Shown: one piece after another, positions 2,655 through 39,770 of the stretch
Layout: the number at the start of each line of letters is the position of its first letter
Numbering within the stretch: position 1 is the stretch's first letter
Assembly (NCBI GenBank): GCA_937949915.1
Contig: CALECP010000053.1
Span: 1-41,813, forward strand
Direction of reading: 5' to 3'
Length of the DNA stretch: 41,813 nucleotides
Source of the DNA: an uncultured Anaerolineae bacterium
Lineage (GTDB): Bacteria; Chloroflexota; Anaerolineae; Promineifilales; Promineifilaceae
Notes under the pieces: model-generated
The model's input: only the letters and a program-made list of their open reading frames with translations
Told to the model about the DNA's origin: nothing
Databases searched by the model: none
Program-made: the position numbers and the translations under genes

Positions 2655-3542
2655 ATGAACCATTTAAGCCGTTTTTTCTTACTGACTATCGTTTTGTGTT
2701 TATTTGTAATGATCGGTTGCTCAGCCCCTCCAGTTGAGACACCCGCGCCGGGTGATGACTCGGTAACGCTGACTGTGATCGATCCTACGCCTGTGGGCGA
2801 CGCGGCCGCGGCCGATGATGGCGCAAGCGCATCGGCCGAAACAGATGCAGCCGGGGACGCGACAACAGATGACGGTACGGCCGCATCGGAAACGGCCGCT
2901 GAGGGCGAAGCGGACGGAGCAAGTGCAGACGGGGACGCGGCCGAGGCAGATGCAGCCGCTGAAGGCGAAAACGCAGATGCGACGGATGCAACAGAGGGCA
3001 GCGAGACCACCGCAGCCAGCACCGATGACACGACTGGCGACACCATTACAGAGACGGCGACAACAGCCGAGGGTGAAAGCGAGGGTGCTGGCGATACCAT
3101 TACCGATACGGTAACGGCCGAAACAGCAGACGCAGATGATGCGACAACGACAACAGAAGATGGCGACGATGCGGCCGCAGGTGAGGGCGAAGCAGCAACG
3201 GAAGGCGATACGGCCGAAGCATCTGAAACCACCGTCGAAAAACAACGGCGCATCGAATTTCCCGAAGGAGCAAATGGCACTATCGTAGGTAGCACCATCG
3301 CCGCCGATGTAACAGAAACATGGCTGGTCGGTGCAGAGGAAGGACAAACCCTCTCCCTCAATCTGTTCCCGTATCCCACCAAAACATTCACCGTTGTCTC
3401 GCCATCTGGCGAAGCGATGGAGGCGGCACAGGGTAATGGCATCTTCTTGATCGACATCACCGAAACAGGTGATCATACGATTGCGATCACGGGTGAATTT
3501 GACGGCGCGTATTCATTGACTGTCGAATTGTTTGGCGGTTGA
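2655..3542 (+). CDS. Lipoprotein with very acidic Ala/Asp/Glu/Thr-rich linker and C-terminal beta domain
   Basis: Lipobox LFVMIGCSAPP; about 160-aa low-complexity linker; C-terminal SLNLFPYPTKTFTVVSPSGE...TGDHTIAITGEFDGAYSLTVELFG resembles a PPC-type beta sandwich. Start MNHLSRFFLL preferred over upstream Met. Confidence 0.75.
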   Translation: MNHLSRFFLLTIVLCLFVMIGCSAPPVETPAPGDDSVTLTVIDPTPVGDAAAADDGASASAETDAAGDATTDDGTAASETAAEGEADGASADGDAAEADAAAEGENADATDATEGSETTAASTDDTTGDTITETATTAEGESEGAGDTITDTVTAETADADDATTTTEDGDDAAAGEGEAATEGDTAEASETTVEKQRRIEFPEGANGTIVGSTIAADVTETWLVGAEEGQTLSLNLFPYPTKTFTVVSPSGEAMEAAQGNGIFLIDITETGDHTIAITGEFDGAYSLTVELFGG

Positions 3543-3563
3543 TAGATAAATGAGAACAATCAA

Positions 3564-3603
3564 CCATTTGTAGGGACATGGCGCGCCACGTCCCTACAAA
3601 TGG
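3564..3603. repeat. 40-bp near-perfect palindrome, TGTAGGGAC family
   Basis: CCATTTGTAGGGAC-A-TGGCGCGCCA-C-GTCCCTACAAATGG; arms complementary except one A/C position. Confidence 0.85.
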
Positions 3604-3619
3604 GGTATACGGAGGCAGC

Positions 3620-4861
3620 ATGATCGACATTGAACAAGCAAATCAAGAAACAGTCACACGAATGATGGCGGCACGGCCGATACTGAAAACAATCGCTACA
3701 GCGCGGGACGTGATTCCCGGTATGCGAGACGATTTGTTGCTTCATGCAGGGCCACCGATCTCGTGGGAAAATGCGTCAGGGCCGCTCCGGGGTGCGCTGG
3801 TGGGCGCGTTGATTTTTGAGGGAAAGGCGGCCGATTGGGAAGCGGCCGAGGCGTTGCTTACCTCTGGCGCAGTGACATTTGAGCCCTGCCACGCACACAG
3901 CACCGTGGGCCCGATGGCGGGGGTAACGAGCGCGTCGATGAAGGTGTATGTCGTTGAAAATGTAACGCATGGCAATGTGGCGTACTCCAATTTGAATGAA
4001 GGGTACGGCAAGGTGCTGCGCTACGGGGCGTACAGCGCGGAAGTAATTGAAAAGTTGCGCTGGATGAATGGCACATTTGCTGATATTTTGACGGCCGCGC
4101 TGGCACAAACAGACGGTATCGACATCCGCGCCCTGCTAGCCGAATCGCTGCACATGGGGGACGAAGGGCATAATCGAAACAAGGCGGGATCGATTCTGTA
4201 CACCGCCAAATTAGCCCCCTTGATCGCACAAACTGATTTTAGTGATGACGAAAAAGCGAAAACGCTGCAATTTTTGGGCGACAATGCGCTCAGTGTGCTG
4301 AATCCGGTGATGGCGGGGTGCAAGGCGATGTGCGACGCGGGGGCTGGCATTGCGGGTAGCACCATTATGACGACGATGGCACGCAATGGGACGGAAGTGG
4401 GCATTCGCGTCAGTGGGCTGGGCGATCAATGGTTTACCGGGCCGGTGGGGCAACCAGATGGGCTGTATTTTCCGGGCTACACGGCCGCCGATGCGAACGG
4501 CGACATCGGGGACAGCACCATTACAGAGACGGCCGGGATTGGGGCATTTGCGATGGCGGCCGCGCCAGCAATTGTCACCTTTATCAGTGGTACACCCGAA
4601 TTGGCGATCAACACGACGATGAATATGTACGAGATCACCGAGACGGAACACACGGCGTTTACGATTCCTGCGCTCGGTTTTCGCGGTACGCCGACTGGTG
4701 TAGACATTCGCAAAGTGGTCGAATTGGGCATTCTGCCGCAAATCAACACAGGCATCGCGCACAAAGAGCCGGGAGTGGGTCAGGTGGGTGCCGGATTAGT
4801 ATTGCCGCCAGCCAATATGTTTGAAGACGCATTGATAGCGTATGCGGAAAAATATCTGTAA
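3620..4861 (+). CDS. DUF1116 family protein (YahG/YlbE/AllG-like)
   Basis: Full-length similarity by recognition: GPPISWENASGPLRGALVGALIFEG, EPCHAHSTVGPMAGVTSASM, MGDEGHNRNKAGS, DQWFTGP. Start MIDIEQANQ after GGAGG. Confidence 0.8.
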   Translation: MIDIEQANQETVTRMMAARPILKTIATARDVIPGMRDDLLLHAGPPISWENASGPLRGALVGALIFEGKAADWEAAEALLTSGAVTFEPCHAHSTVGPMAGVTSASMKVYVVENVTHGNVAYSNLNEGYGKVLRYGAYSAEVIEKLRWMNGTFADILTAALAQTDGIDIRALLAESLHMGDEGHNRNKAGSILYTAKLAPLIAQTDFSDDEKAKTLQFLGDNALSVLNPVMAGCKAMCDAGAGIAGSTIMTTMARNGTEVGIRVSGLGDQWFTGPVGQPDGLYFPGYTAADANGDIGDSTITETAGIGAFAMAAAPAIVTFISGTPELAINTTMNMYEITETEHTAFTIPALGFRGTPTGVDIRKVVELGILPQINTGIAHKEPGVGQVGAGLVLPPANMFEDALIAYAEKYL

Positions 4862-4871
4862 TATGTAGGGC

Positions 4872-5336
4872 ATGGAGAAAGAAATTTGGGTTGCTCTCAT
4901 CGGTCTTGTCGGCGCAATAGCGGCCGTATGGTTCAAATGGTATTTGGATAATCACCATCAGCCGCGTGTGGTTGATGACGCGCCAGTGCTAACCCATAGC
5001 GGCACGGTCAATATGGCGGCCGGGATAACGCTGTCACGAGACGGACAAGGGATGGCGTATGGGCATAAATTTACGTTTGCGTTCACGACGCTGGATGAGG
5101 GGCGTGTGCTGGTATTTACGGCCGAGGCACGGGCGCGGCAATTGATCGCTATCGAGCTATTTGCAGAAGCAGAAAACCAGCACACGCAGCCTGCCATCAT
5201 CACGACCGGCCGCACCTACACACCGCGCCTAGAATGGATGGTTGAACCGGGCAATTACGTGGTTGCTATTGTCGCGCACAGTGATGATGAAATGACGGCC
5301 GATTTTGATGTGTCGTATCGTTATCACGTTGAATGA
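4872..5336 (+). CDS. Hypothetical protein with N-terminal TM anchor
   Basis: MEKEIWVALIGLVGAIAAVWFKWYL TM segment followed by soluble domain; no family recognised. Confidence 0.55.
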   Translation: MEKEIWVALIGLVGAIAAVWFKWYLDNHHQPRVVDDAPVLTHSGTVNMAAGITLSRDGQGMAYGHKFTFAFTTLDEGRVLVFTAEARARQLIAIELFAEAENQHTQPAIITTGRTYTPRLEWMVEPGNYVVAIVAHSDDEMTADFDVSYRYHVE

Positions 5337-5355
5337 TTGTTATCGATCAAAACGA

Positions 5356-5646
5356 TCATGCGTAGCTCAAACCAGAACGCAAATCAGTGATCCACTGTTC
5401 AATTGCTTCATCGTTGATGAGATGAGGGTAATCTTGATCTTTCCATGACCCGGCCGTTTCGGCAACTACTTCGCTTTGTTCCAGAAGCAATAGCCGCTCT
5501 AAAAGCGCATCCATCACGAACTGTTCCCGCTCCTGTATCGTCACCCATTTATCTAACAAGCTGGAGAGCGTATCGGGAACGCTGATCGTCATTTGTGTCG
5601 TTTCAATCATGCTCTCAGTATAACGCTGGGTTTTATCGGTCGTCAA
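5356..5646 (-). CDS. Small protein, possible RHH/antitoxin-like
   Basis: TQMTISVPDTLSSLLDKWVTIQEREQFVMDALLERLLLLEQ resembles a CopG-like beta strand plus helices; no toxin adjacent. Confidence 0.5.
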   Translation of the reverse strand: MTTDKTQRYTESMIETTQMTISVPDTLSSLLDKWVTIQEREQFVMDALLERLLLLEQSEVVAETAGSWKDQDYPHLINDEAIEQWITDLRSGLSYA

Positions 5647-5724
5647 CCTCTACACACCGCCATCATTCTAATCTAAGGGGAGCTATTTACGAAAATCATA
5701 GCAGGGGGCAGGGTGTGCGGAACG

Positions 5725-6774
5725 CTACGGCCGCGCAAAAGAGGGCAACGCTTGCCCCGGCATAATGACGACGCGCACCGGGTCGCCATCAGCGATCTGG
5801 ATAGAGTGCAATTGCCAGCTATGAATAATGGTGCCATCATGCAACTGGATGCGATAGATGTTGGCGATACCGACAAACTGACGGTCAAGAATACGGCCGT
5901 TCCCCCGTCCATCCGGCGCAGGCTGGAGCAATACATCGTCCGGCCGCAGCACAATATCCACCTTCTCCCCATCGGCAAAATCGTGATGATTGGGCAAATC
6001 GCCAAGCGGTGTCGTCACAAAATCACCATGCACCACACCGGGCATAAAGTCGCTCTGCCCCATAAATTCAGCCACAAACCGCGTGCGCGGCCGATGATAG
6101 ATCGTTTCCGGCGAACCTGTTTGTTCCAGGCGGCCGTTGTTCATCACCGCAATTTGATCCCCCATAAACAACGCCTCTTCTTGATCATGTGTCACAAAAA
6201 TCGCCGTCATGTCGGCACGGCGCAGCAAGTCACGCACATCGTGGCGCATCACGTCGCGCAAAGACGCATCTAGGTTGGAAAATGGCTCGTCTAGCAACAA
6301 AACAACTGGCTCTGGGGCTAACGCTCTCGCAAGGGCGACGCGCTGCTGCTGCCCGCCCGAAAGCTCGTGAGGCATCCTGTCGCCCAGCCCAGCCAGCCCC
6401 ACCAGTGCCAGCATGTCAGCGACCCGTTTTTTGGCGGCCGCCCTGCCCAGCCCAAACGCCACATTCTTCCAAACTGTGAGATGCGGAAAAATGGCGTAAT
6501 CTTGGAACACCAGCCCGATATTGCGCTTTTCAGTCGGAATGTGCAGACGGCCGTCCCCCACCACACGCCCCGCGATCTCGATGCGGCCGCTGTCCAGCCG
6601 CTCTAGCCCCGCCAACATGCGGAGCGTCGTCGTTTTGCCACACCCACTCGGCCCGATCAACGCCAAAATCTCGCCATGCTCGACCGAGAGCGACACATCA
6701 TTGACAATCGGCGCATCAGGCGCATCCGTAAACGTTCGCATCAAATTATGGGCGGCCAAAATCGGTGCGCTCAT
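5725..6774 (-). CDS. ABC transporter ATP-binding protein, PotA/FbpC-like
   Basis: Walker A GPSGCGKTT, Q-loop VFQDYAIFPHLTV, signature LSGGQQQRVALARAL, Walker B VLLLDEPFSNLD, C-terminal TOBE-like region. Confidence 0.85.
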   Translation of the reverse strand: MSAPILAAHNLMRTFTDAPDAPIVNDVSLSVEHGEILALIGPSGCGKTTTLRMLAGLERLDSGRIEIAGRVVGDGRLHIPTEKRNIGLVFQDYAIFPHLTVWKNVAFGLGRAAAKKRVADMLALVGLAGLGDRMPHELSGGQQQRVALARALAPEPVVLLLDEPFSNLDASLRDVMRHDVRDLLRRADMTAIFVTHDQEEALFMGDQIAVMNNGRLEQTGSPETIYHRPRTRFVAEFMGQSDFMPGVVHGDFVTTPLGDLPNHHDFADGEKVDIVLRPDDVLLQPAPDGRGNGRILDRQFVGIANIYRIQLHDGTIIHSWQLHSIQIADGDPVRVVIMPGQALPSFARP

Positions 6775-7481
6775 ACTATCTTCTCCAGTACCGTGTACAG
6801 ATTGAGATCGCCCTCTTTGCCGTCGCTGCGCCATTGTTCGACGACGGTCAAATCAGTGTCCGCCAACAAATCATCCAGCGCGGCCGCCGTGATCATGTTG
6901 ACGTGGCGCACCCCGATAGTACGAAACGACATCAAATAGTCAGATGGCTCGACCGCGGCCGGATCGATGCCGACGCTCTCCCATGTCACGATTTTGCGCC
7001 GTTGCCGCTCATTACTCATAAATTGAAAGGTGGTGACGATCATGCGGCCGTGTGGGGCAAGATGTTCGCTCAACTGCTGCAACACACGTACCCGATTGTC
7101 CCGGCCGGGAATGTGGTGCAGGGTCGCCATACACGCGATAGCGTCAAAACGGCCGAGTCCCGCCAAAAAGTCAGGGGCAAGCAAGTTGCGTTCGTAGAAG
7201 TCGCCGACCGTTTGCGGCCGTCCAATCGCCATCAGTTCACTGCTGTAATCGACCCCCGTGTAGTGGGCGATCCGTTGCTGCTCAAGCAAGTAACGGCCGA
7301 GACGGCCGTCCCCACAGCCGACATCGAGAAAACGGGCGCACGGATCGGGCAGACAGCCCTGCAACCGCGCATATCCTTGCCAAGCGTAACGGCGCTTATT
7401 GGAAAAAGCGGTTGCCATTTCTCGATAAAAAGTGCGGTTGATCGCTACCAGTTGCTCAACAGTCTCACGTTTCATATTCAC
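6771..7481 (-). CDS. Class I SAM-dependent methyltransferase (Trm9-like N-terminus)
   Basis: FLDVGCGDGRLGRYLLEQ motif I; VEQLVAINRTFYREMATAFSNKRRYAWQGYARL resembles Trm9/ALKBH8-type methyltransferases. Overlaps both neighbours by 4 nt (ATGA-type). Confidence 0.75.
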   Translation of the reverse strand: MNMKRETVEQLVAINRTFYREMATAFSNKRRYAWQGYARLQGCLPDPCARFLDVGCGDGRLGRYLLEQQRIAHYTGVDYSSELMAIGRPQTVGDFYERNLLAPDFLAGLGRFDAIACMATLHHIPGRDNRVRVLQQLSEHLAPHGRMIVTTFQFMSNERQRRKIVTWESVGIDPAAVEPSDYLMSFRTIGVRHVNMITAAALDDLLADTDLTVVEQWRSDGKEGDLNLYTVLEKIV

Positions 7482-7678
7482 GCTTCATAGCTATGTGTTG
7501 CCAACCGTATACGCCGCCCATTGGTGACAAAAAAGCGATTCCCGGCCGTCAATTGCACCCACACGCCGGGGGGCTGGTGGGTGACAATCGTCCCCCGCCA
7601 CCATCTTTGTTCAGTATCGGCCGCAAATTGAATCTCAACCGCACATCCTTCAGAAAATCGCTCACTCAATCGTTTCAT
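7478..7678 (-). CDS. Small hypothetical protein (possible SH3-like barrel)
   Basis: MKRLSERFSEGCAVEIQFAADTEQRWWRGTIVTHQPPGVWVQL..., overlaps the downstream methyltransferase by 4 nt. Confidence 0.5.
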   Translation of the reverse strand: MKRLSERFSEGCAVEIQFAADTEQRWWRGTIVTHQPPGVWVQLTAGNRFFVTNGRRIRLATHSYEA

Positions 7679-7823
7679 CGCGCCCCATTGTACCAAGCTC
7701 GTGCCGTTTTTCAGTAGTTCGCCCACGACCAGACATCATCATTCGTGTCAGAATGCAATCATACACGCCAATCATAGGTTGCAGAGACGGTGTCGATCCA
7801 TCACAATCCAATCCGAGGTAAAT

Positions 7824-9665
7824 ATGGCAGCTATTATGCAGGGTCTCGATGCCGAGGCGTATGACCGACAATACGATGATAAAGCGTTGCTCAAGCGAAT
7901 CATCAGCTATTTCATGCAGCATCGCGGCCGTCTAGGCGTGATCGTGGTGTGCAACATCATGCTGGCCGTATTAGCCGCGTCACAACCGCTCATCATCCGA
8001 CGTGGTATCGAAGAGATCGCCGAGCGCAATGATATGTCGCTCATTCCGGTGCTGATCGTGATCATCACGGCCGTTGGTTTCAGCGTGTGGGCGGTCAATT
8101 GGGTGTATCGCATCGCCACAGTCAAAGTGTTGCAGGGCATCGTTTTGAGTATGCGTACCGATGCGTTTGATGCGGCCGCACGGCAAGATATGTCGTTTTA
8201 TGACGAATTTAGTAGCGGCCGGATCGTCAGCCGCATCACCAGCGATACAGACGAGTTCGGCCGGGTGGCGCAGCTTTCATTCGACCTGGTGCAGCAAGTA
8301 ACGACCGCGCTGATCCTCGTCATCACACTCATGGTCGAAACGCGCCTCGCCCTTATTTTGCTCGCCATGGCACCGATCACCTATCTGCTGGCAAACGGTT
8401 TTCGCGCCCTGGCACGACGCACCACACGCCAATCTTCCCGCGCCCTCGGCGAAGTCAACAAGTCAATTCAAGAAGCGGTGACAGGCATCGGGGTGGCAAA
8501 AAACTTTCGTCAGGAGCAAGCGATCTATGACGGGTTTCACGACATCAATGTACAAGCGTATCGCATCAACATCCGACGCAGTGCAGTGATCGCCGCCATT
8601 TTCCCCGCGATGGGGCTGCTACTCGGCTTCATGGTGGGCGCAATTGTGTACTTTGGCGGCCAAGCGGTGATCACAGAGGTGATCGCTATTTCCGCTTGGT
8701 ATCTGCTGGTCAGCACGCTGGATCGCTTCTGGTTTCCATTGGTCAATTTGTCCTCATTTTGGAGTCAGTTCCAGCAGGGGTTGAGCGCGGTTGAGCGGGT
8801 GTTTGCCCTGGTCGATGCAGAGCCTGTCGTAGTGCAACAAGATTCTCAAAAAGTACCGCCGCTAGACGGCCGGATCGATTTCGAGCATGTCGCCTTTCGC
8901 TACAAAACGGGTGAGCAAATCCTACCCAATTTCACGCTGACGATTGAGCCGGGGGAAACAATAGCCATCGTAGGACACACCGGCGCGGGCAAGTCGAGCA
9001 TTATCAAGCTGGTTTCCCGTTTTTATGAATTTCAGGGAGGCAAGCTGTCTATCGACGGCTTCGATATTCGTGATCTTGATTTGACGCAATATCGTTCGCA
9101 ATTGGGCATCGTGTCGCAAGTACCGTTTTTGTTTAATGGGACGGTGGCCGACAATGTACGGTTCGGCCGACCCGACATCACGGACGCACAAATTCTGAAA
9201 ATCGCACATCGCATCGGCCGGGGGGAATGGCTAGAGACGTTGCCAGACGGCATCGAGACAAATGTAGGCGAACGGGGCAGTCAGTTGTCGATGGGGCAGC
9301 GGCAATTGGTGGCGCTGACGCGGGTATTGGCGGCCGAGCCAGCGATTTTCATCTTCGATGAAGCGACGGCTAACATCGATCCGTTCACAGAAAGCCAAAT
9401 TCAGGAAGCGTTGCAATTGGTGATGGAAAATCGCACCTCTATCGTGATCGCACATCGCCTGAGTACGGTCAAATCGGCCGACCGCATCCTCGTACTCGAC
9501 CAGGGCGACATCATCGAACAAGGCAGCCACGATCAATTGATGGCACAGGGCGGCAATTACGCAGATCTGTACAATACCTATTTCCGCCATCAATCATTAG
9601 AGGCGATCAACAACCCTGAGTGGCTGGAACGGTGGCAGAAACGAGGCGAAAACGTTGACGATTAA
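7824..9665 (+). CDS. ABC transporter, fused permease and ATPase (MsbA/MdlB-like exporter)
   Basis: N-terminal TM domain; Walker A GHTGAGKSS; signature LSMGQRQLVAL; Walker B IFIFDEATANID; H-loop AHRLST. Confidence 0.9.
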   Translation: MAAIMQGLDAEAYDRQYDDKALLKRIISYFMQHRGRLGVIVVCNIMLAVLAASQPLIIRRGIEEIAERNDMSLIPVLIVIITAVGFSVWAVNWVYRIATVKVLQGIVLSMRTDAFDAAARQDMSFYDEFSSGRIVSRITSDTDEFGRVAQLSFDLVQQVTTALILVITLMVETRLALILLAMAPITYLLANGFRALARRTTRQSSRALGEVNKSIQEAVTGIGVAKNFRQEQAIYDGFHDINVQAYRINIRRSAVIAAIFPAMGLLLGFMVGAIVYFGGQAVITEVIAISAWYLLVSTLDRFWFPLVNLSSFWSQFQQGLSAVERVFALVDAEPVVVQQDSQKVPPLDGRIDFEHVAFRYKTGEQILPNFTLTIEPGETIAIVGHTGAGKSSIIKLVSRFYEFQGGKLSIDGFDIRDLDLTQYRSQLGIVSQVPFLFNGTVADNVRFGRPDITDAQILKIAHRIGRGEWLETLPDGIETNVGERGSQLSMGQRQLVALTRVLAAEPAIFIFDEATANIDPFTESQIQEALQLVMENRTSIVIAHRLSTVKSADRILVLDQGDIIEQGSHDQLMAQGGNYADLYNTYFRHQSLEAINNPEWLERWQKRGENVDD

Positions 9666-12606: not shown

Positions 12607-13113
12607 CTACAGATTTTGATATTGTACTTTATCGGAACAGAACCCAGTGTTTTTAGCCGATCCGCCCATGCTTGTTTTAGTTGCACTGCATATAGGTAGT
12701 ACGATTTTACGAGACTTCTCTCTGGAAAAAGAACGAAAATGCAGGATACGCTCAGGCTCTCTCTCAACTTTGCGGATGAGAACTTGACCATTTCCATATT
12801 TTTCTCGCACCCGCTTGGCTAATGAGCCAATATCAACATCATGGTCGATCAAGAACTCACCATAAATTGCCACATATTGTCCTAAATGGTTTTTAACCAA
12901 CGTGCTGTGCATCGCAATATACGCTTTGTTTTCAGTCGTGAATGGGTCAGGTTGTTTGATGGATGGTTGAGGCATGATGTTGTCTATGTGTCCTTCTTTT
13001 TCCCACAGATGACGAATGGCATCGCGCACGACATCGCTTTCTGATTGATAGCGGCCGGATGCGATTTTTGCCTCGATCCACTGCTCCATCTCTTCTGTAA
13101 CAATGATATTCAT
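12607..13113 (-). CDS. Second ParD/CopG-like RHH plus DUF5678-like protein (no protease partner)
   Basis: MNIIVTEEMEQWIEAKIASGRYQSESDVVRDAIRHL plus GQYVAIYGEFLIDHDVDIGSLAKRVREKYGN; paralogous to the protein at 470..928; unrelated C-terminal tail. Confidence 0.7.
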   Translation of the reverse strand: MNIIVTEEMEQWIEAKIASGRYQSESDVVRDAIRHLWEKEGHIDNIMPQPSIKQPDPFTTENKAYIAMHSTLVKNHLGQYVAIYGEFLIDHDVDIGSLAKRVREKYGNGQVLIRKVEREPERILHFRSFSREKSRKIVLPICSATKTSMGGSAKNTGFCSDKVQYQNL

Positions 13114-13144
13114 GCTTACAGCGTACTCGTTAAAAAACAGTGCG

Positions 13145-13708
13145 TCAAGATTCGGCCGCGCCCCGTTCGTAAAAAAGCAAAACAGTACTACCATACGTCC
13201 GTTCTTTGAACAGCGTCAGGTGCTTGAGTGCGATTTCTTCGTACTCTCTGGGGTCGATCTGGACGATCACGATGCCATCTGGTTTGAGCAAATCGTCGAT
13301 TCGCAATTCAATGCCAGCTATTGCGCCCACCCACACGCCATGATATTGCGGCGGAGCGACATAGATCACGTCAAAGGGGGTAGCGGCCGATTCGAGCCAT
13401 GAAAACGCATCCGCATGACGCACCGTTGCCCGATCTGCCAATTTGGTGTGGGCAACATTGTCTTGAATCACTTTGATCGCAGGACGCACTTTGTCGATAA
13501 AGGTGACATGCGCCGCCCCTCGGCTGAGGGCTTCGATACCGACTTGGCCTGTGCCAGCAAATAGATCGAGCCAGTGTGAATCGATGATGTAATCGGCATC
13601 AACTAAGTTGAATAGATTTTCTTTGACACGATCCATGATCGGCCGGGTTGTGTCACCCGGCACTTTTTTTAGTTTCATCCCTCGTGCAGAACCACTGATA
13701 ACGCGCAT
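13145..13708 (-). CDS. rsmD: 16S rRNA (guanine(966)-N(2))-methyltransferase RsmD
   Basis: MRVISGSARGMKLKKVPGDTTRPIMDRVKENLFNLV...WLDLFAGTGQVGIEALSRGA is a canonical RsmD N-terminus. Confidence 0.85.
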   Translation of the reverse strand: MRVISGSARGMKLKKVPGDTTRPIMDRVKENLFNLVDADYIIDSHWLDLFAGTGQVGIEALSRGAAHVTFIDKVRPAIKVIQDNVAHTKLADRATVRHADAFSWLESAATPFDVIYVAPPQYHGVWVGAIAGIELRIDDLLKPDGIVIVQIDPREYEEIALKHLTLFKERTYGSTVLLFYERGAAES

Positions 13709-26546: not shown

Positions 26547-27512
26547 ATGAACAAATATGGTCACTATCACGTCACGAATACATTGAAAAAAGAGTTAAGA
26601 AAAGGGCAGGTTCAGCTTGCCATTATCGGTACAGCTATTGCCTTGAGCATCATGGCTATTTTCCCGCCACCCACATACGCATCAGAAGGATGTGAAAAAG
26701 AAATTGTCATTCCAACGGTGCCGCAAATATGGGCACACAAAACCGTTCACTTGATCAACCTTGAGCGGCGCAAAGTTGGCGTTCCGCCTCTAAAAGTAGC
26801 AGACGAACTTGTTGCGGCCGCACGCTATCATTTGCAAGATATGCTCGATGATGATTATTACCATACTTCATCGCACGACCGGATCGATGGTGAGTTAGTA
26901 GAGGTCTGTCAACGGCATGAGCGTATCGGACTGTTTTATCCTGATTACACCTATACGGACGAGATTTTGAATGAGGGATTGTATTCGTATCCATTTGAGA
27001 AATTTGTTGTGCAATCATGGATTGACTATGATTTCACAAGAGGGCGTATGCTTGAGCCTGCGTATTGGGAGGCGGGCGTGGCTTATAATTATGGTGATCG
27101 CATTATGCAAACATGGGTTGCCAACTTTGGGCAACGGCCGAATGTTTACCCGATCATCATCAATGATGAGGCAGAAACAACCGATATAGATGATATAGCT
27201 ATTTATCTATACGGTGATTGGCAAGAGGTGCGTTTCCAAATCAATGAAGGTGCATGGAGTGAGTGGATGCCATTCGAGAATGAGATGTACCAAACATTGT
27301 CTGATGGAGCTGGGGAAATGATGGTAACGGCCGAAATGCGAACGGACACACTTTCTACCACCAGCAGCGATACAATCATGCGTGATCCCGATCCAACGGC
27401 CGTGCAGACTACAACAATTAGCATCTCTCTGAACATGCCTATGTGGCTGTTTTTTACGGCCGTTTTAACGTTACTTACAATGCGCCAGGTTACGCGCCGA
27501 CCTGTTAGCTAA
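26547..27512 (+). CDS. CAP (SCP/PR-1-like) domain protein, secreted and C-terminally anchored, copy 1
   Basis: HLINLERRKVGVPPLKVADELVAAARYHLQDMLDDDYYHTSSHDRIDGE; C-terminal MWLFFTAVLTLLTMRQVTRRPVS. Confidence 0.75.
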   Translation: MNKYGHYHVTNTLKKELRKGQVQLAIIGTAIALSIMAIFPPPTYASEGCEKEIVIPTVPQIWAHKTVHLINLERRKVGVPPLKVADELVAAARYHLQDMLDDDYYHTSSHDRIDGELVEVCQRHERIGLFYPDYTYTDEILNEGLYSYPFEKFVVQSWIDYDFTRGRMLEPAYWEAGVAYNYGDRIMQTWVANFGQRPNVYPIIINDEAETTDIDDIAIYLYGDWQEVRFQINEGAWSEWMPFENEMYQTLSDGAGEMMVTAEMRTDTLSTTSSDTIMRDPDPTAVQTTTISISLNMPMWLFFTAVLTLLTMRQVTRRPVS

Positions 27513-27751
27513 TCTGTGAATGGCATCAAGATAGCGTGCTGAAAAAGCACATCTGGAAGCGTTCCCAACACAGGTTCGCCTGACCAGAGTACTAATTATG
27601 ACATAGATCACATCATCATTGATAAACAGTAGACTGCACATATTCTTGAAATCTATTACGCTACTAGTGGAATTGAGTGTTGTTACAGATGGCACAGACA
27701 GAAGATATTAGTAGAGAAGTTTTGTATTTAAGTAATTGGAGCAGTATCGTA

Positions 27752-29032
27752 ATGATTAACGATGATCGCTATTCACATATCAAAAACAACCTAAACATCT
27801 ATAAAGTACATGGGTTTCATATTATCATTATCAGCTTGGTGTTTGTATTAAGTATCATGGCTGTTTTCCCACCATCAGCACATGCGCTAGAAGGGTGCGA
27901 GAGAGAAGTTGTCATTCCAACAATAGCTCAAACATTGGCGCATAACGCTGTTTATCGCATCAACCTTGAGCGGCGCAAAGTGGGTGTCCCCCCTCTAAAA
28001 GTTGCCAATGAACTAACCCTATCGGCACGCTACCATCTACAAGATATGATGGACGATGATTACTACCATACTTCATCATACGACCGGGTCGATGGCGAAT
28101 TGGTAAAAGTGTGTGAGAGGCACGAGCGCATCGGTCTGTTTTATCCTGATTACACTTATACAGATGAGATATTGAATGAAGGTTATTACACTTATCCATT
28201 CGATGCCTTTGTTGTTCAATCGTGGTTAAATTACGCGCCTACCTCGGAGCGTATGCTCCATCCTGCCTATTGGGAGGTTGGTGTAGCATACATTTATGGT
28301 GAGAGCGTTATGCAAACATGGGTCGCCAACTTCGGACAACGGCCGGAAGTCTATCCTATCATCATCAATGATGAAGCAGAGAGAACTGATTCGCATGAAG
28401 TATCTGTATACATATACGGGGATTTTAGCGAGGTGCGCTTCCGTAACGATAGCGACGCTTGGTCTGAATGGATGCCATTTAGCAATGAGATGGACATTTT
28501 GATCAATGGGACACCAGGCGAGCATTTGTTACGGGCCGAAATGCGTGATGAAGATGGCAACATATTCGCTAGTAGCGACAAAATCGAGTACACAGGCGAA
28601 GTGGTTGCGCCAACAGCAACCCCACTGGTGACAAACACGCCTGTCCCAACAAACACGCCCGTCCCGACAAACACACCTGCCCCAACAAACACGCCTGCCC
28701 CAACAAACACACCCGTCCCAACAAACACGCCTGTCCCAACAAACACACCCGCTCCGACAAACACACCTGTCCCGACAATTCCAGCAGTTGTCTCTATAGA
28801 GATTACTTTTGATTTGCCATCTACGAACACGCCCGAACCGACACCAGAGGGCACATCTGAAGGTTTAGATGCCCCCGACAATAACATCCCTCTCAACATA
28901 TCGCTTGTGCAAGGGAAAGCGATACAGCAAACTATCTCGACGACACCACTCTTGGTGGTTATATTGATGCTGACAGTGGTATCCACAATGGTTGTCACAT
29001 CAACCAAAATGCGCTATTTGCCGATACGTTAA
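27752..29032 (+). CDS. CAP domain protein, copy 2, with Thr-Pro-rich linker
   Basis: Paralogue of the preceding gene; adds a (TNTPVP)n linker and C-terminal TM LLVVILMLTVVSTMVVTSTKMRYLPIR. Confidence 0.78.
   Translation: MINDDRYSHIKNNLNIYKVHGFHIIIISLVFVLSIMAVFPPSAHALEGCEREVVIPTIAQTLAHNAVYRINLERRKVGVPPLKVANELTLSARYHLQDMMDDDYYHTSSYDRVDGELVKVCERHERIGLFYPDYTYTDEILNEGYYTYPFDAFVVQSWLNYAPTSERMLHPAYWEVGVAYIYGESVMQTWVANFGQRPEVYPIIINDEAERTDSHEVSVYIYGDFSEVRFRNDSDAWSEWMPFSNEMDILINGTPGEHLLRAEMRDEDGNIFASSDKIEYTGEVVAPTATPLVTNTPVPTNTPVPTNTPAPTNTPAPTNTPVPTNTPVPTNTPAPTNTPVPTIPAVVSIEITFDLPSTNTPEPTPEGTSEGLDAPDNNIPLNISLVQGKAIQQTISTTPLLVVILMLTVVSTMVVTSTKMRYLPIR
28631..28774 (+). repeat. 18-bp coding minisatellite, about 8 units encoding TNTP(V/A)P
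   Basis: Unit ACAAACACGCCTGTCCCA and variants, in frame, 8 consecutive units. Confidence 0.9.
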
Positions 29033-32978: not shown

Positions 32979-33000
32979 AGGCGGGGCATTTTCCCCGCCT
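32979..33000. terminator. Terminator shared by convergent queE and S8 peptidase genes
   Basis: AGGCGGGG-catttt-CCCCGCCT. Confidence 0.75.
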
Positions 33001-33007
33001 CACTTAT

Positions 33008-34723
33008 TTATTCGTCCGGCTGTACGGTCGGTATCGGGTCAAATAGGCCTGTATCTGGCTCTTCTTCGATTATCGGAATGTCAAAGGGCGATCCACCCTC
33101 AAAATCATAAACAGGTTCATTGCCCCACACCAGTTCGCCACGATAGTAGATGCCGATGTTCTCGGACACGACAAACGAGGGCGCATACGTGTAGGAGTGA
33201 TCGTCTGTTTGATCATACGTTTCGCGCCAGTCGGTATAGCGAACGCGCACCTTGATCAGGCCAGACTCTGTTTCGCCCATCAACATCCCGGCCGCTTCGT
33301 CAAACCCGATCTCAAGATAGTCGCCATAAACAGTCATATCTAGGTTGCCGCACACGACGAGAGCATAGCCGCATTCGACGATTTGTGTGCCGCCCGGTGG
33401 CGTGTTGTACCAGTAGCGAATGGCGAGATCAGATAGGTGAACGCTCCGGCCGTAATTGTCGATCCGTAGCAATGGATAGATGGCACGAGCGGGATCATCA
33501 TCCCCGGTGCGGTAGCGTATTCTTACATCAAGCGTCTCATCATTGGCGGCCGCCATCACAGCATCAAGCGCATCGAGCAAGGGGAATGTTTGCCCATACA
33601 CCCGTCGCGGATGTGCGCTCTCTTGCAAAATCGTTTGCAGACATGCGGCCGTGCAATCAGGGTTGGCTTCGTGCATCAGGGCTGCCACGCCGGTCACAAA
33701 CGGGGCCGCCATCGAGTTGCCTGTCCAGAACGCATATTTGCTAGGGCCACCCGCATAGGCAGACAAAATCGACTCGCCCGGTGCATAAATATCGGCCGGA
33801 TGATCGTCGTATTTCGCAAACGACATCGGCATATCTTCATCACGCCTGAGAGCCCCCACACTCAAAACAGTCTCCATCCCTGCCGGAATGCCTATCGACG
33901 GGTATCCGGCCGAGGCGACGATCAGCACCCCATTTTCATACGCATACCTGACCGCATCCATCAAATTAAGCGTCGATACATCGCCACTCCCACTCAAATT
34001 GATAACGTCCGCCCCATTATCGACCGCATAGCGAATACCATCAGCGACCGTATCATACGCGCCCTGTCCATCAGGGTTAAAAATACGCACGGGCATAATC
34101 CTTGCATTGGGTGCGACTATGCGAACGATACCAGAGACATGTGAGCCATGCCCCATCGATTCGTCAACGAAGCGATCCCCGTCTGTATCGAGGTTGTCCC
34201 ATGTGTCAACGGGGTCGTTGTCTTCGTCGATAAAGTCGTAGCCGGGAAACAAGTGGTCGCCCAGCATGACGTGTCTTGTGTTGATACCGGTATCTAGCAC
34301 AGCAACCACTACGCCTTCACCTGTCGCATGGTCTTGCGCCAAATCTAAGCGAATCTGGTCACGGGCTGTTACGTTTTCAAATATCCCACTTGCATCGCTG
34401 TTGACGTTGATCCAACTTGTTTGGGCTTCGAGCAAAGCGTCGTTGTTGACATTGATCCAACTTGTTTCGAGTCCTGTTTCGATGGTGGCGGTATCGGCCG
34501 TGTCTGATGGCACAATCGGGATGTCTGGATATTCAGGCGTAACGGGAACGGATGACGTAGCAGGTGCATTAGCAATCAGGGGCAACAAAACACGCACCGT
34601 CATCTGTTGTTCTGGTTGGGTAGGTGGCGCGGCCGTTGCACGCGCCACCGATAGTGACACAAATAGAACAGTCAGCATTAAAAACCACTGCCATCGATAC
34701 GTGCTTTCTGTAAGACAATACAT
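33008..34723 (-). CDS. S8 family subtilisin-like serine peptidase, secreted
   Basis: Signal peptide; VAVLDTGINTRH (Asp), MGHGSHVSGI (His), GNSMAAPFVTGVAAL (Ser). Confidence 0.93.
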   Translation of the reverse strand: MYCLTESTYRWQWFLMLTVLFVSLSVARATAAPPTQPEQQMTVRVLLPLIANAPATSSVPVTPEYPDIPIVPSDTADTATIETGLETSWINVNNDALLEAQTSWINVNSDASGIFENVTARDQIRLDLAQDHATGEGVVVAVLDTGINTRHVMLGDHLFPGYDFIDEDNDPVDTWDNLDTDGDRFVDESMGHGSHVSGIVRIVAPNARIMPVRIFNPDGQGAYDTVADGIRYAVDNGADVINLSGSGDVSTLNLMDAVRYAYENGVLIVASAGYPSIGIPAGMETVLSVGALRRDEDMPMSFAKYDDHPADIYAPGESILSAYAGGPSKYAFWTGNSMAAPFVTGVAALMHEANPDCTAACLQTILQESAHPRRVYGQTFPLLDALDAVMAAANDETLDVRIRYRTGDDDPARAIYPLLRIDNYGRSVHLSDLAIRYWYNTPPGGTQIVECGYALVVCGNLDMTVYGDYLEIGFDEAAGMLMGETESGLIKVRVRYTDWRETYDQTDDHSYTYAPSFVVSENIGIYYRGELVWGNEPVYDFEGGSPFDIPIIEEEPDTGLFDPIPTVQPDE

Positions 34724-34764
34724 ATAAATAAAAACTCCGGCCGCTCACTATCTGCTCCTGGCAC

Positions 34765-37647
34765 TCAAACAGTTAATCGAAGGTATGAATCGCCAGATAA
34801 TAAAAACGGGGCCCAATAAAATGGATGATCTCTTTTCTGCTTCATCGTTAGTTGTGCTTGACGCAAAGCGTGGCTGACTGTATGACCATTATTCAAGAAA
34901 GAATAGAACACAGTCATCAATTCGGCCGTGGAAAGGTCATCAACCATCCACAAGCTCACAACTAAACTCTTGGCACCAGAGGCAAAGAAGCCACGAGACA
35001 GGCCGACCAATTCGTCGCCTGCCGCCATCTGGTGCCGCCCCGTCTCGCAACCGCTCAGAACAATGAGCGCGGGAGAGAGGACAATGCTATAGATGTCATT
35101 AACTGTAAACCACCCGTCGGCTAATTTCAAGGCTGAAAATGCAGGATTGTCTGTTCTAAATAAGGCATGAGTGGCTAAATGAAGCAGGGTGTGGCGCGTT
35201 TGAAAATTCAGTTTGTCAAGCGTGGCATCGACACCAATATGCAGAGCAGGGTTGTCGAAAAGGGCGGCAATCGCCTCTGTTTCCGCCTCTGTATGGGGAA
35301 CTGTGTCGTCAGCAAGACCAATAATGACGGGATCGCCTTCGACTTGGTGTGATTCGGCCGCTAATGATTGATAGAGGATCGTGCCGCTAGGTGCAATCGA
35401 AACAGCAAACAGATCGATCATATATTGCGTACCATCAAACAGTGCATTCAGTGGCAAATAGTGAATGATGCCGTGCGGGATAATGAACAAATTCTCATAA
35501 TCGGCCGCATCAATCCGCTCCAAAATCGGCCGTAACAGCCCATCATACAATTGTGCCAATACATCTTGGCTAGTCGCCAGCAGCATATCGTGAAATTGCG
35601 CGAGGTACGATTTGCCATAACCAAATTTGTTGAGCTGGAGTCGCCATTGTCCCAACAACTGTTGCACTTGTTGGACGGTGGCGGTCAAGGGGATTTTTTG
35701 CAGCCCGTCTTTGGTCAGCAGAAAGGCGATGATCGTTTCGTCGATAATGTAGTATTCGATCAAAATCGCGTCGTCGGGCAACACATCGATCAATTGCACA
35801 GCCGAAGCTGTCCAGACCAAATTGTAGGAAGCGGCCGCGCTTTCTGGCGTGTTTAATTGATCGAGCAACCCATCGACGGCCGTTTCCCGTTGAGCGATCT
35901 CTGCCTTGAGTCGTGCCATGTCGTCTGGTTGGCGTTCTGGTGCGTCAGTATCTGGGGAGAGCAACCGGGAATAGTACCAGCTCAATTCACGGCGCGTTTG
36001 AGCCAGTTGCGTAACAAGAGGATCAGCATCGCTTATTTCGCGGCCGGGTGGCGTGGCGTGCGTCATCACATCGAGCAGCACCCGCGCCCGCGAGCGTTCT
36101 GCCATGTCAAACGCTTGGTGCAAAGCTGCGTCTGTGTCGATAGACAATAACAGTTGCACAATCTCTTGATAGACATCACGCTTGTCCTGCAAAAACGAGA
36201 GTTTGTGCGCTTCTGTGCCGATGTTTGATTGCAGTCGCTCAATATCGTTGATCGCTTTGGTAAACAACGCACACGCTTGGTCAACATGGCCACGCGCCTT
36301 TGCCGTATGGGCAAATCCTTCGTAACACGCATGACGCAATGCCGAAAAACCGATCTCTTCCAATTGGCTCATGGCAGCGCGGTATTGTTGGTCGGCCGTT
36401 TCATAATCGCCCTGCAAATACGCGATCTCGCCCATCAACAATTGGGCGCGAACAGCATAGCTGGGGAAATGCAGATCGCTGAATGTTTCTTGGGCGGCCG
36501 TCACCAGCTTGGCGGCCGCATCATATTGCCCTTGTCGTATGAGCAAACTCCCACGATGCAAATCGCAGATCGCCGCCCATGTGACACTATCACAAGTGAT
36601 AAAACTGTCTCTGGCTAGCCCCAAATGCGTCGAAGCTTCTTCAAATTGCAACAGACGCACCAAAATGATCGCTCGGTATAAATGCGTTTGCCCCTGATAC
36701 CAACTCATCCCCATCCGTGCAAACGTTTCCCCCGCTTCTTCCGCATACACCAGCGCCTCATCCCACAAATTGAGCGTAAGATGCACCTTGCTCAAATTAA
36801 GTGCGGCCGTCGCTGTATGAGATGTATCTATATTGTCGATAGAAACATAAGCATCACGTGCTTTTATCCCCGCTTGCAACGCCCGTTGATAATCTCCTTG
36901 TGCCATATAAAGCTCAAGCAGGCTCGTATCGATTTGTGCGATCACCAGCGTCATACCCAACTGTTCCAAAGCGTATTGCGCTGCTTCATACCGCTCAATA
37001 GCCTCATCAAAATCATCTAAATGCGCCAGCGCAATCGCATAGTTAAAGTTGAGGGCTGCCAGCAAATTGGCGGGGACATCAGCTAATTTTTGGTAAGCAA
37101 GTTGCGCGTTCTCATAACATTTTTTCGACTGCTCGAAACGGGCAAGCGCCCCGTAGATGTTGCCCAAGTTGGTCAAAATTTTGCCTTCGCTCAACGCATC
37201 CCCTAGCTGCTGGGCTTGTGCTATCGCTGTCTCCCCCAGGGCAAGCGCGTCATCTGTGCGCCCCAAATAACGCAATGCACCGATATGTCCCACCGCAACC
37301 TGAACCATTTTGTGCGGCATATTTAATGTTTGATATTGGTCAGAGGCTTGTTGATACAGTTTGTGGGCTGCTTGGGGATCACCCATTTTCTCTTGAATAT
37401 CGGCCGCTGTATGCAAATAGAGCGCGGCCGTGGCTGCATCTTGCCAACAGTCGGCCGCCAACGACAAAACCCGCACCAGCTTCTCCGCTTCATGCGGGTT
37501 TTTCCAGCTAGCAGAAATACACGCCTGCCGCATAGCAGACGCAAATTGTTCATCCGGCCGTGGATATTCTTTTGTTAGCCAATCTCGTTGCTCACTTTCA
37601 TCATCCAGCGATAACAACAGATCAAGTTGTGAATCTATAGATTGCAT
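34765..37647 (-). CDS. TPR-CHAT protein (caspase-like peptidase)
   Basis: N-terminal TPR array (e.g. GKILTNLGNIYGALARFEQSKKCYENAQLAYQ); C-terminal CHAT with HLATHALF (His) and IVLSGCETGRHQMAAGDELVGLSRGFFASGA (Cys). Confidence 0.93.
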   Translation of the reverse strand: MQSIDSQLDLLLSLDDESEQRDWLTKEYPRPDEQFASAMRQACISASWKNPHEAEKLVRVLSLAADCWQDAATAALYLHTAADIQEKMGDPQAAHKLYQQASDQYQTLNMPHKMVQVAVGHIGALRYLGRTDDALALGETAIAQAQQLGDALSEGKILTNLGNIYGALARFEQSKKCYENAQLAYQKLADVPANLLAALNFNYAIALAHLDDFDEAIERYEAAQYALEQLGMTLVIAQIDTSLLELYMAQGDYQRALQAGIKARDAYVSIDNIDTSHTATAALNLSKVHLTLNLWDEALVYAEEAGETFARMGMSWYQGQTHLYRAIILVRLLQFEEASTHLGLARDSFITCDSVTWAAICDLHRGSLLIRQGQYDAAAKLVTAAQETFSDLHFPSYAVRAQLLMGEIAYLQGDYETADQQYRAAMSQLEEIGFSALRHACYEGFAHTAKARGHVDQACALFTKAINDIERLQSNIGTEAHKLSFLQDKRDVYQEIVQLLLSIDTDAALHQAFDMAERSRARVLLDVMTHATPPGREISDADPLVTQLAQTRRELSWYYSRLLSPDTDAPERQPDDMARLKAEIAQRETAVDGLLDQLNTPESAAASYNLVWTASAVQLIDVLPDDAILIEYYIIDETIIAFLLTKDGLQKIPLTATVQQVQQLLGQWRLQLNKFGYGKSYLAQFHDMLLATSQDVLAQLYDGLLRPILERIDAADYENLFIIPHGIIHYLPLNALFDGTQYMIDLFAVSIAPSGTILYQSLAAESHQVEGDPVIIGLADDTVPHTEAETEAIAALFDNPALHIGVDATLDKLNFQTRHTLLHLATHALFRTDNPAFSALKLADGWFTVNDIYSIVLSPALIVLSGCETGRHQMAAGDELVGLSRGFFASGAKSLVVSLWMVDDLSTAELMTVFYSFLNNGHTVSHALRQAQLTMKQKRDHPFYWAPFLLSGDSYLRLTV

Positions 37648-37694
37648 GTCCCATCAGGCGACATGGTGGGGTATCAATAGAACAATTATCAGCC

Positions 37695-38240
37695 CTACGC
37701 TGCAACTGTAATCGGTTCAATCACCACATCGCTCTCTTCCCCAAGCAATTGCAAAGTGTAATTGCCGGGAAGGATATGGGTGAATGTAAAGCGTCCAAAG
37801 CGGTCTGTCAACCCTATGCGAGTATCTGCATCATTCTCTTGGTGTATCAGGTGCAGTTCCAGCCCTGTCAGACCATCGGCCGTATCGGCCGACATCAACA
37901 CTTGACCATGTACCGTTTTATCGGCCGTCACGATCTGCATGTCAATATGAACAGTGTCACTGCTAAACATCAACTGGCGTTCATCCAAACTACCACCACG
38001 AACACCAACAGCCCCTGCGATCAAGCTATCAAATTGCAAAGCGGCATTCTTAGTCGGCCGTACCTGCGCTCTTTTGGCACGGCGTTGGTAAACAGACAAG
38101 ACGCGATCCAACACATCGGCCGATGGCATCGTCAACTTTGCGCGACGCAATTTTGCCAACTGCTGCTCATACTGCGTTTCTCCGTTTTCTAACAAAGACG
38201 CGATAAGTGCGTCCAATCCCTGATTATTTTTGCTATACAT
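37695..38240 (-). CDS. 181-aa protein with C-terminal transthyretin/CnaB-like (carboxypeptidase regulatory-like) domain
   Basis: N-terminal charged helical region; LTGLELHLIHQENDADTRIGLTDRFGRFTFTHILPGNYTLQLLGE matches the CnaB/CarboxypepD_reg-like pattern. Confidence 0.65.
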   Translation of the reverse strand: MYSKNNQGLDALIASLLENGETQYEQQLAKLRRAKLTMPSADVLDRVLSVYQRRAKRAQVRPTKNAALQFDSLIAGAVGVRGGSLDERQLMFSSDTVHIDMQIVTADKTVHGQVLMSADTADGLTGLELHLIHQENDADTRIGLTDRFGRFTFTHILPGNYTLQLLGEESDVVIEPITVAA

Positions 38241-38329
38241 ACAAAAAATCCCTGAAAAATATCTGTGTAAATCTCTGTCTATACTGTATCTATATTAATA
38301 GAGGGCATAGGACAGCCTAAAAATACATA

Positions 38330-38953
38330 TCAACAGCCCACTTTTTCCAAACGGATAATCGCTGCCCGTAATTTATTCAACGAACGCCGTCTATTTGGCC
38401 CAATACTGCCTGTAGGAATCCCCAATTCGGCCGCGATCCGCTCATACGTCCACGGCGGGTCGGCCAAAAATAACGCCGTCAACAAATCTCGATCTCGCTG
38501 TGCCAACAAACCAATCGCCTCTTGAATTAAATGTTTCTGTGCGATCAAATCAAGTTGCTCATCAACCTCATCATATTCCCCCAGCTCCTCTATTGCTTCA
38601 ATATCGCTCAACTGCACCTTTTGGTGCGTCCGCCAATACTGTATCGACTTGCGTTTCGTCGTCGTTACCAGCCACGCACTGAGGCGCGTCACATCGCGCA
38701 ATTCCCCCAAATTCTCTAGCAACAACAAACAGACTTCCTGAAAAATCTCATCAGCGACCTGATTGGAAAAACCAAACCGCAACGGCACAGAATAGATCAA
38801 GCGACTGTAACGGCCGATCAGCAACACCCATGCAGATTGATCACCCGCAAGGCAAAGCGCAACCAGTTCGCTATCGTCCTGCGGCTCAACTATAGTCGTG
38901 TCAGGTGAATCTGCCTGTAACAAGGCAGATTCGTCAATACGTTGCATAATCAA
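38330..38953 (-). CDS. RNA polymerase sigma-70 family (ECF-like) sigma factor
   Basis: Region 2 (GDQSAWVLLIGRYSRLIYSVPLRFGFSNQVADEIFQEVCLLLLENL) and region 4 (LLTALFLADPPWTYERIAAELGIPTGSIGPNRRRSLNKLR). Confidence 0.88.
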   Translation of the reverse strand: MIMQRIDESALLQADSPDTTIVEPQDDSELVALCLAGDQSAWVLLIGRYSRLIYSVPLRFGFSNQVADEIFQEVCLLLLENLGELRDVTRLSAWLVTTTKRKSIQYWRTHQKVQLSDIEAIEELGEYDEVDEQLDLIAQKHLIQEAIGLLAQRDRDLLTALFLADPPWTYERIAAELGIPTGSIGPNRRRSLNKLRAAIIRLEKVGC

Positions 38954-39191
38954 AAGTGTAACCGGATTGTGTTATATTTCTCTCGCTTCTCTTAAATCTG
39001 TCATAATCTATCGACAACGATTATTGTATCCTATTTTACAGACAATGCTGATAGGCGGCTTAACGGAAAAGCGGAAAGATAGGCGATAGCCACGTTGTGC
39101 ATATAATTGTTGGTTATAGAGCGTGTAGAGCAAATAGGGTTGCGAAGGGTTCACGGGTAAGAAATTGCAAGTTAGAAACGTGTAGACAACT

Positions 39192-39770
39192 ATGTTCAGA
39201 CAAAATCAGGGTGTATGTACAACGGAGTCAACTGATTGGGAATTAGTACAAGCGTGCCGTGCGGATAATGAAGCCGCATGGGATATTATGCTAAACCGCT
39301 ATCAACGGTGGGTATTTTTTGTGCCGCGTCGCTATGGGCTAACGGATGCGGACGCGGCCGACATCGTACAGATCACGTATACGATTATGATGGATAACTT
39401 GCATGTGTTCCATGCAGAAAGCAACATCAAAGCATGGCTCGGTACAGTGGCAAAGCGACAAACATGGCTGCGACTGAAAAAGCATGATCGAGAAGATGTC
39501 TATTATGAGGAAGATTTGAGCGACAGCGCATTGCTGATGAGCAAAAGCGGCAAGCCACAAGACACACTCGCATTAGCCGACTGGCTGCACGATGGCCTCG
39601 GCCGCCTCGGCGAAAAATGCCGCACGCTCCTGCTTGCCCTTTATCTGGAAGACACCAAGCCCTCTTACGACGACATCAGCAATCGGTTCGGCATGAGCGT
39701 GGGCAGCATTGGCCCCACACGAGCGCGATGCTTGAAAAAATTGAAAGAGATAATGAACGAGATCGGGTGA
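39192..39770 (+). CDS. Second RNA polymerase sigma-70 family (ECF-like) sigma factor
   Basis: NEAAWDIMLNRYQRWVFFVPRRYGLTDADAADIVQITYTIMMDNL; region 4 LLLALYLEDTKPSYDDISNRFGMSVGSIGPTRARCLKKL. Confidence 0.88.
   Translation: MFRQNQGVCTTESTDWELVQACRADNEAAWDIMLNRYQRWVFFVPRRYGLTDADAADIVQITYTIMMDNLHVFHAESNIKAWLGTVAKRQTWLRLKKHDREDVYYEEDLSDSALLMSKSGKPQDTLALADWLHDGLGRLGEKCRTLLLALYLEDTKPSYDDISNRFGMSVGSIGPTRARCLKKLKEIMNEIG

Follow-up and report, generated by a model that had tools for sequence, protein, structure and literature searches.

A conserved ECF sigma factor module with a TPR-CHAT protease, a probable anti-sigma factor and an exported subtilase

Described systems and the four-gene locus

Sigma factors of the group ECF54 have conserved neighbours described as a 'carboxypeptidase', a subtilase, and a CHAT protein, and proteolytic control has been proposed for them (PMC8999054, a review from 2022). 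The review's entry on this group, which cites Huang 2015 and Casas-Pastor 2021, assigns it no anti-sigma factor. Sigma factors released by proteases are already known from two CRISPR-associated systems. In type III-E CASP, the cut made by Csx29 in Csx30 falls within the C-terminal domain, at a flexible loop and not at an inter-domain linker, and is proposed to free CASP-sigma (PMC10028731); in the other system, the signal-activated cytoplasmic protease CalpL cuts the anti-sigma factor CalpT (PMC11417357).

The locus compared here with these systems lies in a stretch of DNA of 41,813 nt, which as a whole is called the window; P denotes its 181-aa protein together with the relatives of that protein, and L-numbers denote loci of relatives. 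Four intact open reading frames on the minus strand make up the locus, and their coordinates and lengths (207, 181, 960, and 571 aa), as well as intergenic gaps of 89, 47, and 41 nt computed from the ORF coordinates, are as an earlier sequence-only reading had given them. The gene at 38330-38953 encodes an ECF sigma factor (207 aa when counted from a TTG; Sigma70_r2 1e-10 and Sigma70_r4 8e-6 in Pfam, TIGR02937 3e-20). Its earlier identification as an ECF-like sigma factor held, and its start is more likely an ATG at 38947 than the TTG at 38953. The 181-aa P, a candidate anti-sigma factor and CHAT substrate according to the family analysis and an AlphaFold2 model, is encoded at 37695-38240, and a TPR-CHAT caspase-like protease of 960 aa follows at 34765-37647 (Pfam CHAT 6e-60, with TPR_12 repeats beside it). 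Its CHAT domain spans residues 694-953 (34789-35568), with the catalytic codons for H827 at 35167-35169 and for C867 at 35047-35049. The His and Cys motifs are intact, as had been claimed, and an alignment of 11 sequences shows no variation at H823, H827, or C867. The last gene, at 33008-34723, encodes an exported S8 subtilase of 571 aa (Peptidase_S8 2e-40) with all three Asp/His/Ser triad motifs and a signal-peptide-like start recognized by eye, again in agreement with the sequence-only reading; an export signal is carried by the subtilases of the module throughout. The N-terminal region of the window subtilase also contains a near-perfect direct repeat (TSWINVNNDAL...TSWINVNSDA, within 34400-34500 on the minus strand) that is found in none of the other S8 proteins inspected.

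Directly past the S8 stop codon, between convergent genes, is a hairpin (32979-33000, found on both strands) of 8 bp, 7 of them G-C, which is the probable terminator of the block. Terminator-like sites in the window total 10 against 7.7 expected, which is chance level, so its position alone argues for the hairpin as the end of the block given earlier. At the other end, the 238-bp intergenic region between two divergent sigma genes (38954-39191) is the expected promoter region. No promoter motif was established in this region or by a bipartite (5+4-mer) search upstream of 68 sigma genes. The search yielded TGGGA-N17-TGAT, present in 8 sequences where shuffles gave no more than 4, and this candidate was rejected as it is coding sequence of an upstream SBP gene in Acidobacteriota.

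The window resembles ECF54 in having an ECF sigma factor (regions 2 and 4) with CHAT, subtilase, and carboxypeptidase-regulatory-like neighbours, and since the module matches the ECF54 context as given in the review's entry (PMC8999054), the neighbourhood itself is already known. Set against the 'carboxypeptidase' of that entry, the beta domain of P is Pfam's CarboxypepD_reg. Unlike ECF54 as described there, and compared by neighbourhood description only, the module has in P a probable anti-sigma factor with a candidate cut site, and its range extends beyond that of ECF54 to Chloroflexota, Acidobacteriota, and others. The module is called ECF54-like in context, and not ECF54, because relatives of P match anti-sigma families, and the group description in that entry may itself need correcting. 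No earlier description was found of P as a probable anti-sigma factor, of its invariant arginine, of the three gene orders, or of the link to Opp transporters, in a comparison that the primary ECF54 and DdvA papers lie outside.

In Myxococcus xanthus, a zinc-type anti-sigma domain is coupled to a TPR-CHAT protein and an ECF sigma factor in the DdvA/DdvS pair, in which DdvA is a single membrane protein that fuses the anti-sigma and TPR-CHAT parts. The module shares these three components with DdvA/DdvS (PDB 8rlz, 8rot, and 8rw5). Unlike in DdvA, however, the anti-sigma and TPR-CHAT proteins are separate ORFs in the window and at the loci seen, and P has a CnaB-like domain. The P family also resembles ChrR of Rhodobacter in combining a soluble zinc anti-sigma domain with a C-terminal beta domain. 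ChrR differs in its beta domain, a metal-binding cupin, and is not known to work with a CHAT protease. With type III-E CASP (PMC10028731), the module has in common a TPR-CHAT protease, an ECF sigma factor, and an inhibitor that binds sigma through its N-terminal domain and is cut in its C-terminal one, both features being predicted for P. The window TPR-CHAT matches the Csx29 model NF041237 at 2e-10 (40 bits against a cut-off of 300), and its profile matches Csx29 chains in the PDB at 1e-11. In contrast to CASP, the module lacks Cas7-11 and crRNA and has an exported subtilase, and P is about 150-300 aa long against 565 for Csx30. No ORF in the window exceeds 960 aa, which is too short for Cas7-11, and NCBIfam and PDB profile searches with P gave no similarity to Csx30. 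CalpL/CalpT/CalpS, from type III CRISPR, differs in its protease, which is a cA4-activated Lon-SAVED protein, and in having neither CHAT nor subtilase (PMC11417357).

Protein P and its invariant arginine

The window P consists of shortened anti-sigma helices (residues ~7-57) and a CnaB/TTR-like beta domain (residues ~63-179) in an AlphaFold2 model with a pLDDT of 84. The beta domain matches CarboxypepD_reg at 4e-4 and SdrD_B at 2e-3, both below the Pfam cut-off. The sequence-only reading had called this gene product TTR-like, a term that missed the anti-sigma half, visible in relatives only. In these relatives the N-terminus is longer and often carries an HLxxCxxC-type motif, and the H, C, and C of the zinc site are aligned in 84 of 141. 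The NCBIfam 'anti-sigma factor' model is matched by 16 of 32 members (best 2e-9, mostly below curated cut-offs) and zf-HC2 by five of the 32 (best 6e-9). P-family profiles match RsiW (7e-6), DdvA (3e-5), and ChrR (2.5e-4) in the PDB, as well as the chain 8rot (1e-4), a protein of 991 aa named CHAT domain-containing protein, and the C-terminal half of P matches NOMO-type beta sandwiches. These matches show that P is of anti-sigma ancestry.

The model of a full-length member, from locus L168, has four helices followed by the beta domain; in a fold search of the PDB it comes closest to ChrR (E 1e-3). The window P, with three shorter helices in its model (about one fewer than the L168 protein), gave generic beta-sandwich matches only. 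The P of a congener (L021) is shortened in the same way, and actinomycete members are shorter still. The zinc motif H-x3-C-x2-C, which occurs in about half of class I anti-sigma factors (PMC7406223), is absent from the window P. A gene for an ECF sigma factor lies beside that for P in the window and at 69 of the 76 P loci whose flanks are long enough. Given the matches of its relatives to anti-sigma families and PDB profiles and the closeness of the L168 model to ChrR, P is probably a soluble class I-type anti-sigma factor with a CnaB-like domain. Binding to the sigma factor is predicted for the family, and least surely for the window P, whose anti-sigma domain is shortened; short forms of this kind may contact the sigma factor with their last helix.

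One residue of the family stands out. R81, whose codon lies at 37998-38000 on the minus strand, is the sole invariant position in 119 aligned P sequences, and this arginine is also the one residue without exception in 141 P sequences and 20 further actinomycete members (161/161). The consensus around it is A-x-G-[VALMI]-R-[GSA], with small or hydrophobic residues at P2 and P3, a small residue at P1', and free variation beyond P2'. In the model of the window P, R81 is part of the loop that connects strands 67-71 and 87-93, and the loop from R81 to the next strand is mostly 8 to 15 residues long across members. This pattern of conservation looks like that of a protease site, and R81 is a candidate P1 residue for a cut by the partner CHAT (GVR before the bond and GG after it). 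The position in a loop parallels the cut loop in the C-terminal domain of Csx30 (PMC10028731). On the other hand, about ten P homologues without CHAT within 1.5 kb still have the arginine, which may therefore have a different role. On the protease side, a search for features specific to P-linked CHATs that would explain arginine specificity found none; an acidic motif ('GDE') that follows the CHAT cysteine was rejected as a mark of it, as this motif also occurs in CHATs without P.

Conservation, gene order, and cognate pairs

A search with P alone among 59 relatives led to loci of the same order, sigma-P-CHAT-S8. In the class, 178 of 396 genomes have a match to a P profile (A1) at E ≤ 1e-3, and in the phylum 96 of 400 do, many of the matches being partial. 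At the strong loci selected by the P profile alone, TPR-CHAT is directly downstream in 65 of 68 (62 by script and 3 by eye); CHAT genes are present at L097, L098, and L164, and a sigma gene at L021. Scans of the whole collection with P alignments were unproductive, and since P lacks a conserved stretch, CHAT was taken as the anchor. Among the CHATs with P in the named genomes scanned in this way, a sigma gene was found at 33 of 39 and an S8 gene at 33 of 39, against 1 of 13 and 0 of 13, respectively, for CHATs without P (Fisher 1e-6 for sigma and 4e-8 for S8). In the pooled set, which includes CHAT-anchored loci and is thereby biased toward the P-CHAT pair, CHAT lies within 1.5 kb of 130 of 140 distinct P genes, and all four genes are present at 50 of the 76 P loci with enough flank. 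The P and CHAT genes usually abut or overlap, with a median gap of 3 nt over 110 loci.

The module occurs in Chloroflexota, Acidobacteriota, Actinomycetota (Rubrobacter and Jiangellales), and Pseudomonadota (Rubrivivax), together with P and CHAT in Planctomycetota and sigma-P-CHAT in a Thermodesulfovibrionia bacterium, and spans at least six bacterial phyla. Its order is sigma-P-CHAT-S8 in Chloroflexota, sigma-CHAT-P-S8 in Acidobacteriota (22 loci with CHAT followed by P), and S8-sigma-P with a mostly divergent CHAT in actinomycetes. Of 20 actinomycete loci selected by P alone, 19 have sigma, 18 have S8, and 17 have CHAT. As the arrangement recurs across phyla, it is far beyond chance, and the four genes are a conserved module. 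The co-occurrence check proposed with the sequence-only reading is accordingly positive: homologues of the 181-aa protein stay beside CHAT, with sigma and S8 as usual partners.

Several loci depart from the common forms. At L163, P (7117-7851, plus strand) is with a sigma gene beside a divergent CHAT-S8 pair (3326-6178, minus strand), and L138 has a rearranged form with P and sigma in divergent orientation. In a Chloroflexota sub-group (L129, 7869-8648, and L131, 8626-9342, both on the minus strand; L147 and L212), P has two zinc-finger motifs and the upstream sigma-like protein is too divergent for recognition by Pfam.

Separate trees give the sigma factor and P of the window almost identical sets of nearest relatives: the sigma factor groups with those of L099, L106, L020, L108, and L102, and P is near those of L099, L020, L108, L102, and L021. 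Divergent from the block is a second ECF sigma gene of the module type without its own P or CHAT (SIG2, 39192-39770, plus strand), which belongs to another sub-group of the module and adjoins L028 in the sigma tree. The same genome has a P-CHAT module without sigma on contig C1 (L025), and its P also falls near L028. When contigs C1 and C230 are taken as one module, their CHAT parts overlap in profile positions and not in sequence. A congener likewise has a module without sigma (L026) and an orphan sigma gene (L254). These placements suggest SIG2 as a possible trans partner of the module on contig C1, and L254 as a possible one of L026.

Candidate mechanism and alternatives

The reading preferred here, to which we assign a probability of about 0.6, is a cytoplasmic proteolytic switch acting on an ECF sigma factor. 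Its inhibitor would be P, whose N-terminal anti-sigma helices would keep the sigma factor off. The TPR-CHAT protease would sense a trigger through its TPR superhelix and then cut P after R81, where the beta domain exposes a loop. With P lost, the sigma factor would transcribe its target genes, among them probably those of this operon and so the exported subtilase. We infer the cut at R81, the autoregulation, and the role of the subtilase as output. The anti-sigma domain, the adjacency of CHAT, and the invariant loop arginine support the earlier proposal of a module independent of CRISPR, with the 181-aa protein as restraint on the sigma factor and likely CHAT substrate. The linkage kept through three gene orders, the agreement between the sigma and P trees, and the examples of Csx29/Csx30 and CalpL/CalpT also argue for the switch. 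Against it are the matches to anti-sigma models, which for most P members are below curated cut-offs, the shortened anti-sigma domains of the window P and the actinomycete members, the P homologues that have the arginine but no CHAT close by, and the negative searches for a specificity feature in CHAT and for a promoter motif.

P could instead be the sensor itself, with a ligand or stress acting on its beta domain to free the sigma factor, as in ChrR, and with TPR-CHAT and the subtilase as sigma outputs forming a suicidal or digestive protease pair; the arginine would then be structural or part of an interface. ChrR, the top fold match, does share the layout of an anti-sigma domain followed by a sensor domain of beta structure, and some P-sigma pairs without CHAT keep the arginine. 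However, no neighbour of P is more constant than CHAT, whose gene all but joins that of P in the operon, the arginine is in a loop of varying length with no second binding-site residue invariant, and the known sigma-tied TPR-CHAT proteins act on the anti-sigma factor (PMC10028731), so that P as the sensor appears unlikely. The chance or mobility-driven adjacency of four functionally unlinked genes, which could be argued from how common each family is and from the change of gene order between phyla, is refuted by linkage through three orders, by overlapping genes, and by the Fisher tests, and we regard it as barely conceivable.

A more specific form of the proteolytic switch is a peptide-sensing circuit, in which the subtilase would make peptides, an oligopeptide importer would return them, and their binding to the TPR domain, as in RRNPP receptors, would lead CHAT to cut P. 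In Acidobacteriota, an SBP_bac_5 (oligopeptide-binding) gene lies directly upstream of sigma at 14 of 17 testable loci, mostly with a 4-nt overlap, and the module is co-operonic with an Opp/Dpp-type oligopeptide ABC transporter, with an HD-type gene downstream. L203 (1479-13582; also L184, L176, and L187), for example, reads ABC transporter, SBP_bac_5, sigma, CHAT, P, and S8, followed by the HD-type gene. The export signal of the subtilases and the presence of NprR and RapF among the TPR matches in the PDB point in the same direction, but these two are among many other, generic matches, and neither the window nor most Chloroflexota have a transporter beside the module. Moreover, the Acidobacteriota operon is accounted for just as well by simple nutrient scavenging through a secreted protease and the uptake of peptides, and the full circuit is rather improbable. 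Peptide sensing or protein scavenging nevertheless fits that operon better than immunity does.

An antiphage function, in which infection would activate CHAT and the sigma factor would turn on defence as in type III-E CASP or DdvS/DdvA, is distinctly doubtful. The module would work like Csx29-Csx30-CASP-sigma (PMC10028731) in outline. It also resembles DdvA, with its anti-sigma domain fused to TPR-CHAT, and the P profile matches PDB chain 8rot, which is linked to a defence island. In contrast, PADLOC gave no specific match for the module, no relatives of the module were found on plasmids, and no defence or cas genes recur among its flanks, so that a role in phage defence finds no support, and the window has no ORF of the length needed for Cas7-11. 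Cas1 genes were seen elsewhere in the genome on contigs C114 (8044-8955) and C336 (11062-11925), both without the module.

As a tentative extension, to be taken with considerable reserve, the modules may form an ancient family of CHAT-protease/anti-sigma switches that is independent of CRISPR, reaches across six or more phyla, and has kept an arginine-specific cut site in every member; type III-E CASP and the fused DdvA would be specialised relatives, and some lineages would read the peptides of their own subtilase. For ECF54-type sigma factors, with no anti-sigma factor listed so far and proteolytic control a guess, P, CHAT, and a candidate bond reduce the matter to a question about one residue. 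If the proteolytic switch is real, the logic of Csx29-type protease and sigma factor exists and is widespread outside CRISPR, which bears on the origin of CRISPR-associated caspase-like proteases and adds a compact protein switch.

Two other features of the window were observed. Tandem genes for similar secreted proteins lie at 26547-27512 and 27677-29032 on the plus strand, the second with a long TNTPVPTNTPAP repeat. Two small proteins encoded on the minus strand at 470-964 and 12607-13194 have similar N-termini with the look of ribbon-helix-helix (ParD-type) antitoxins.
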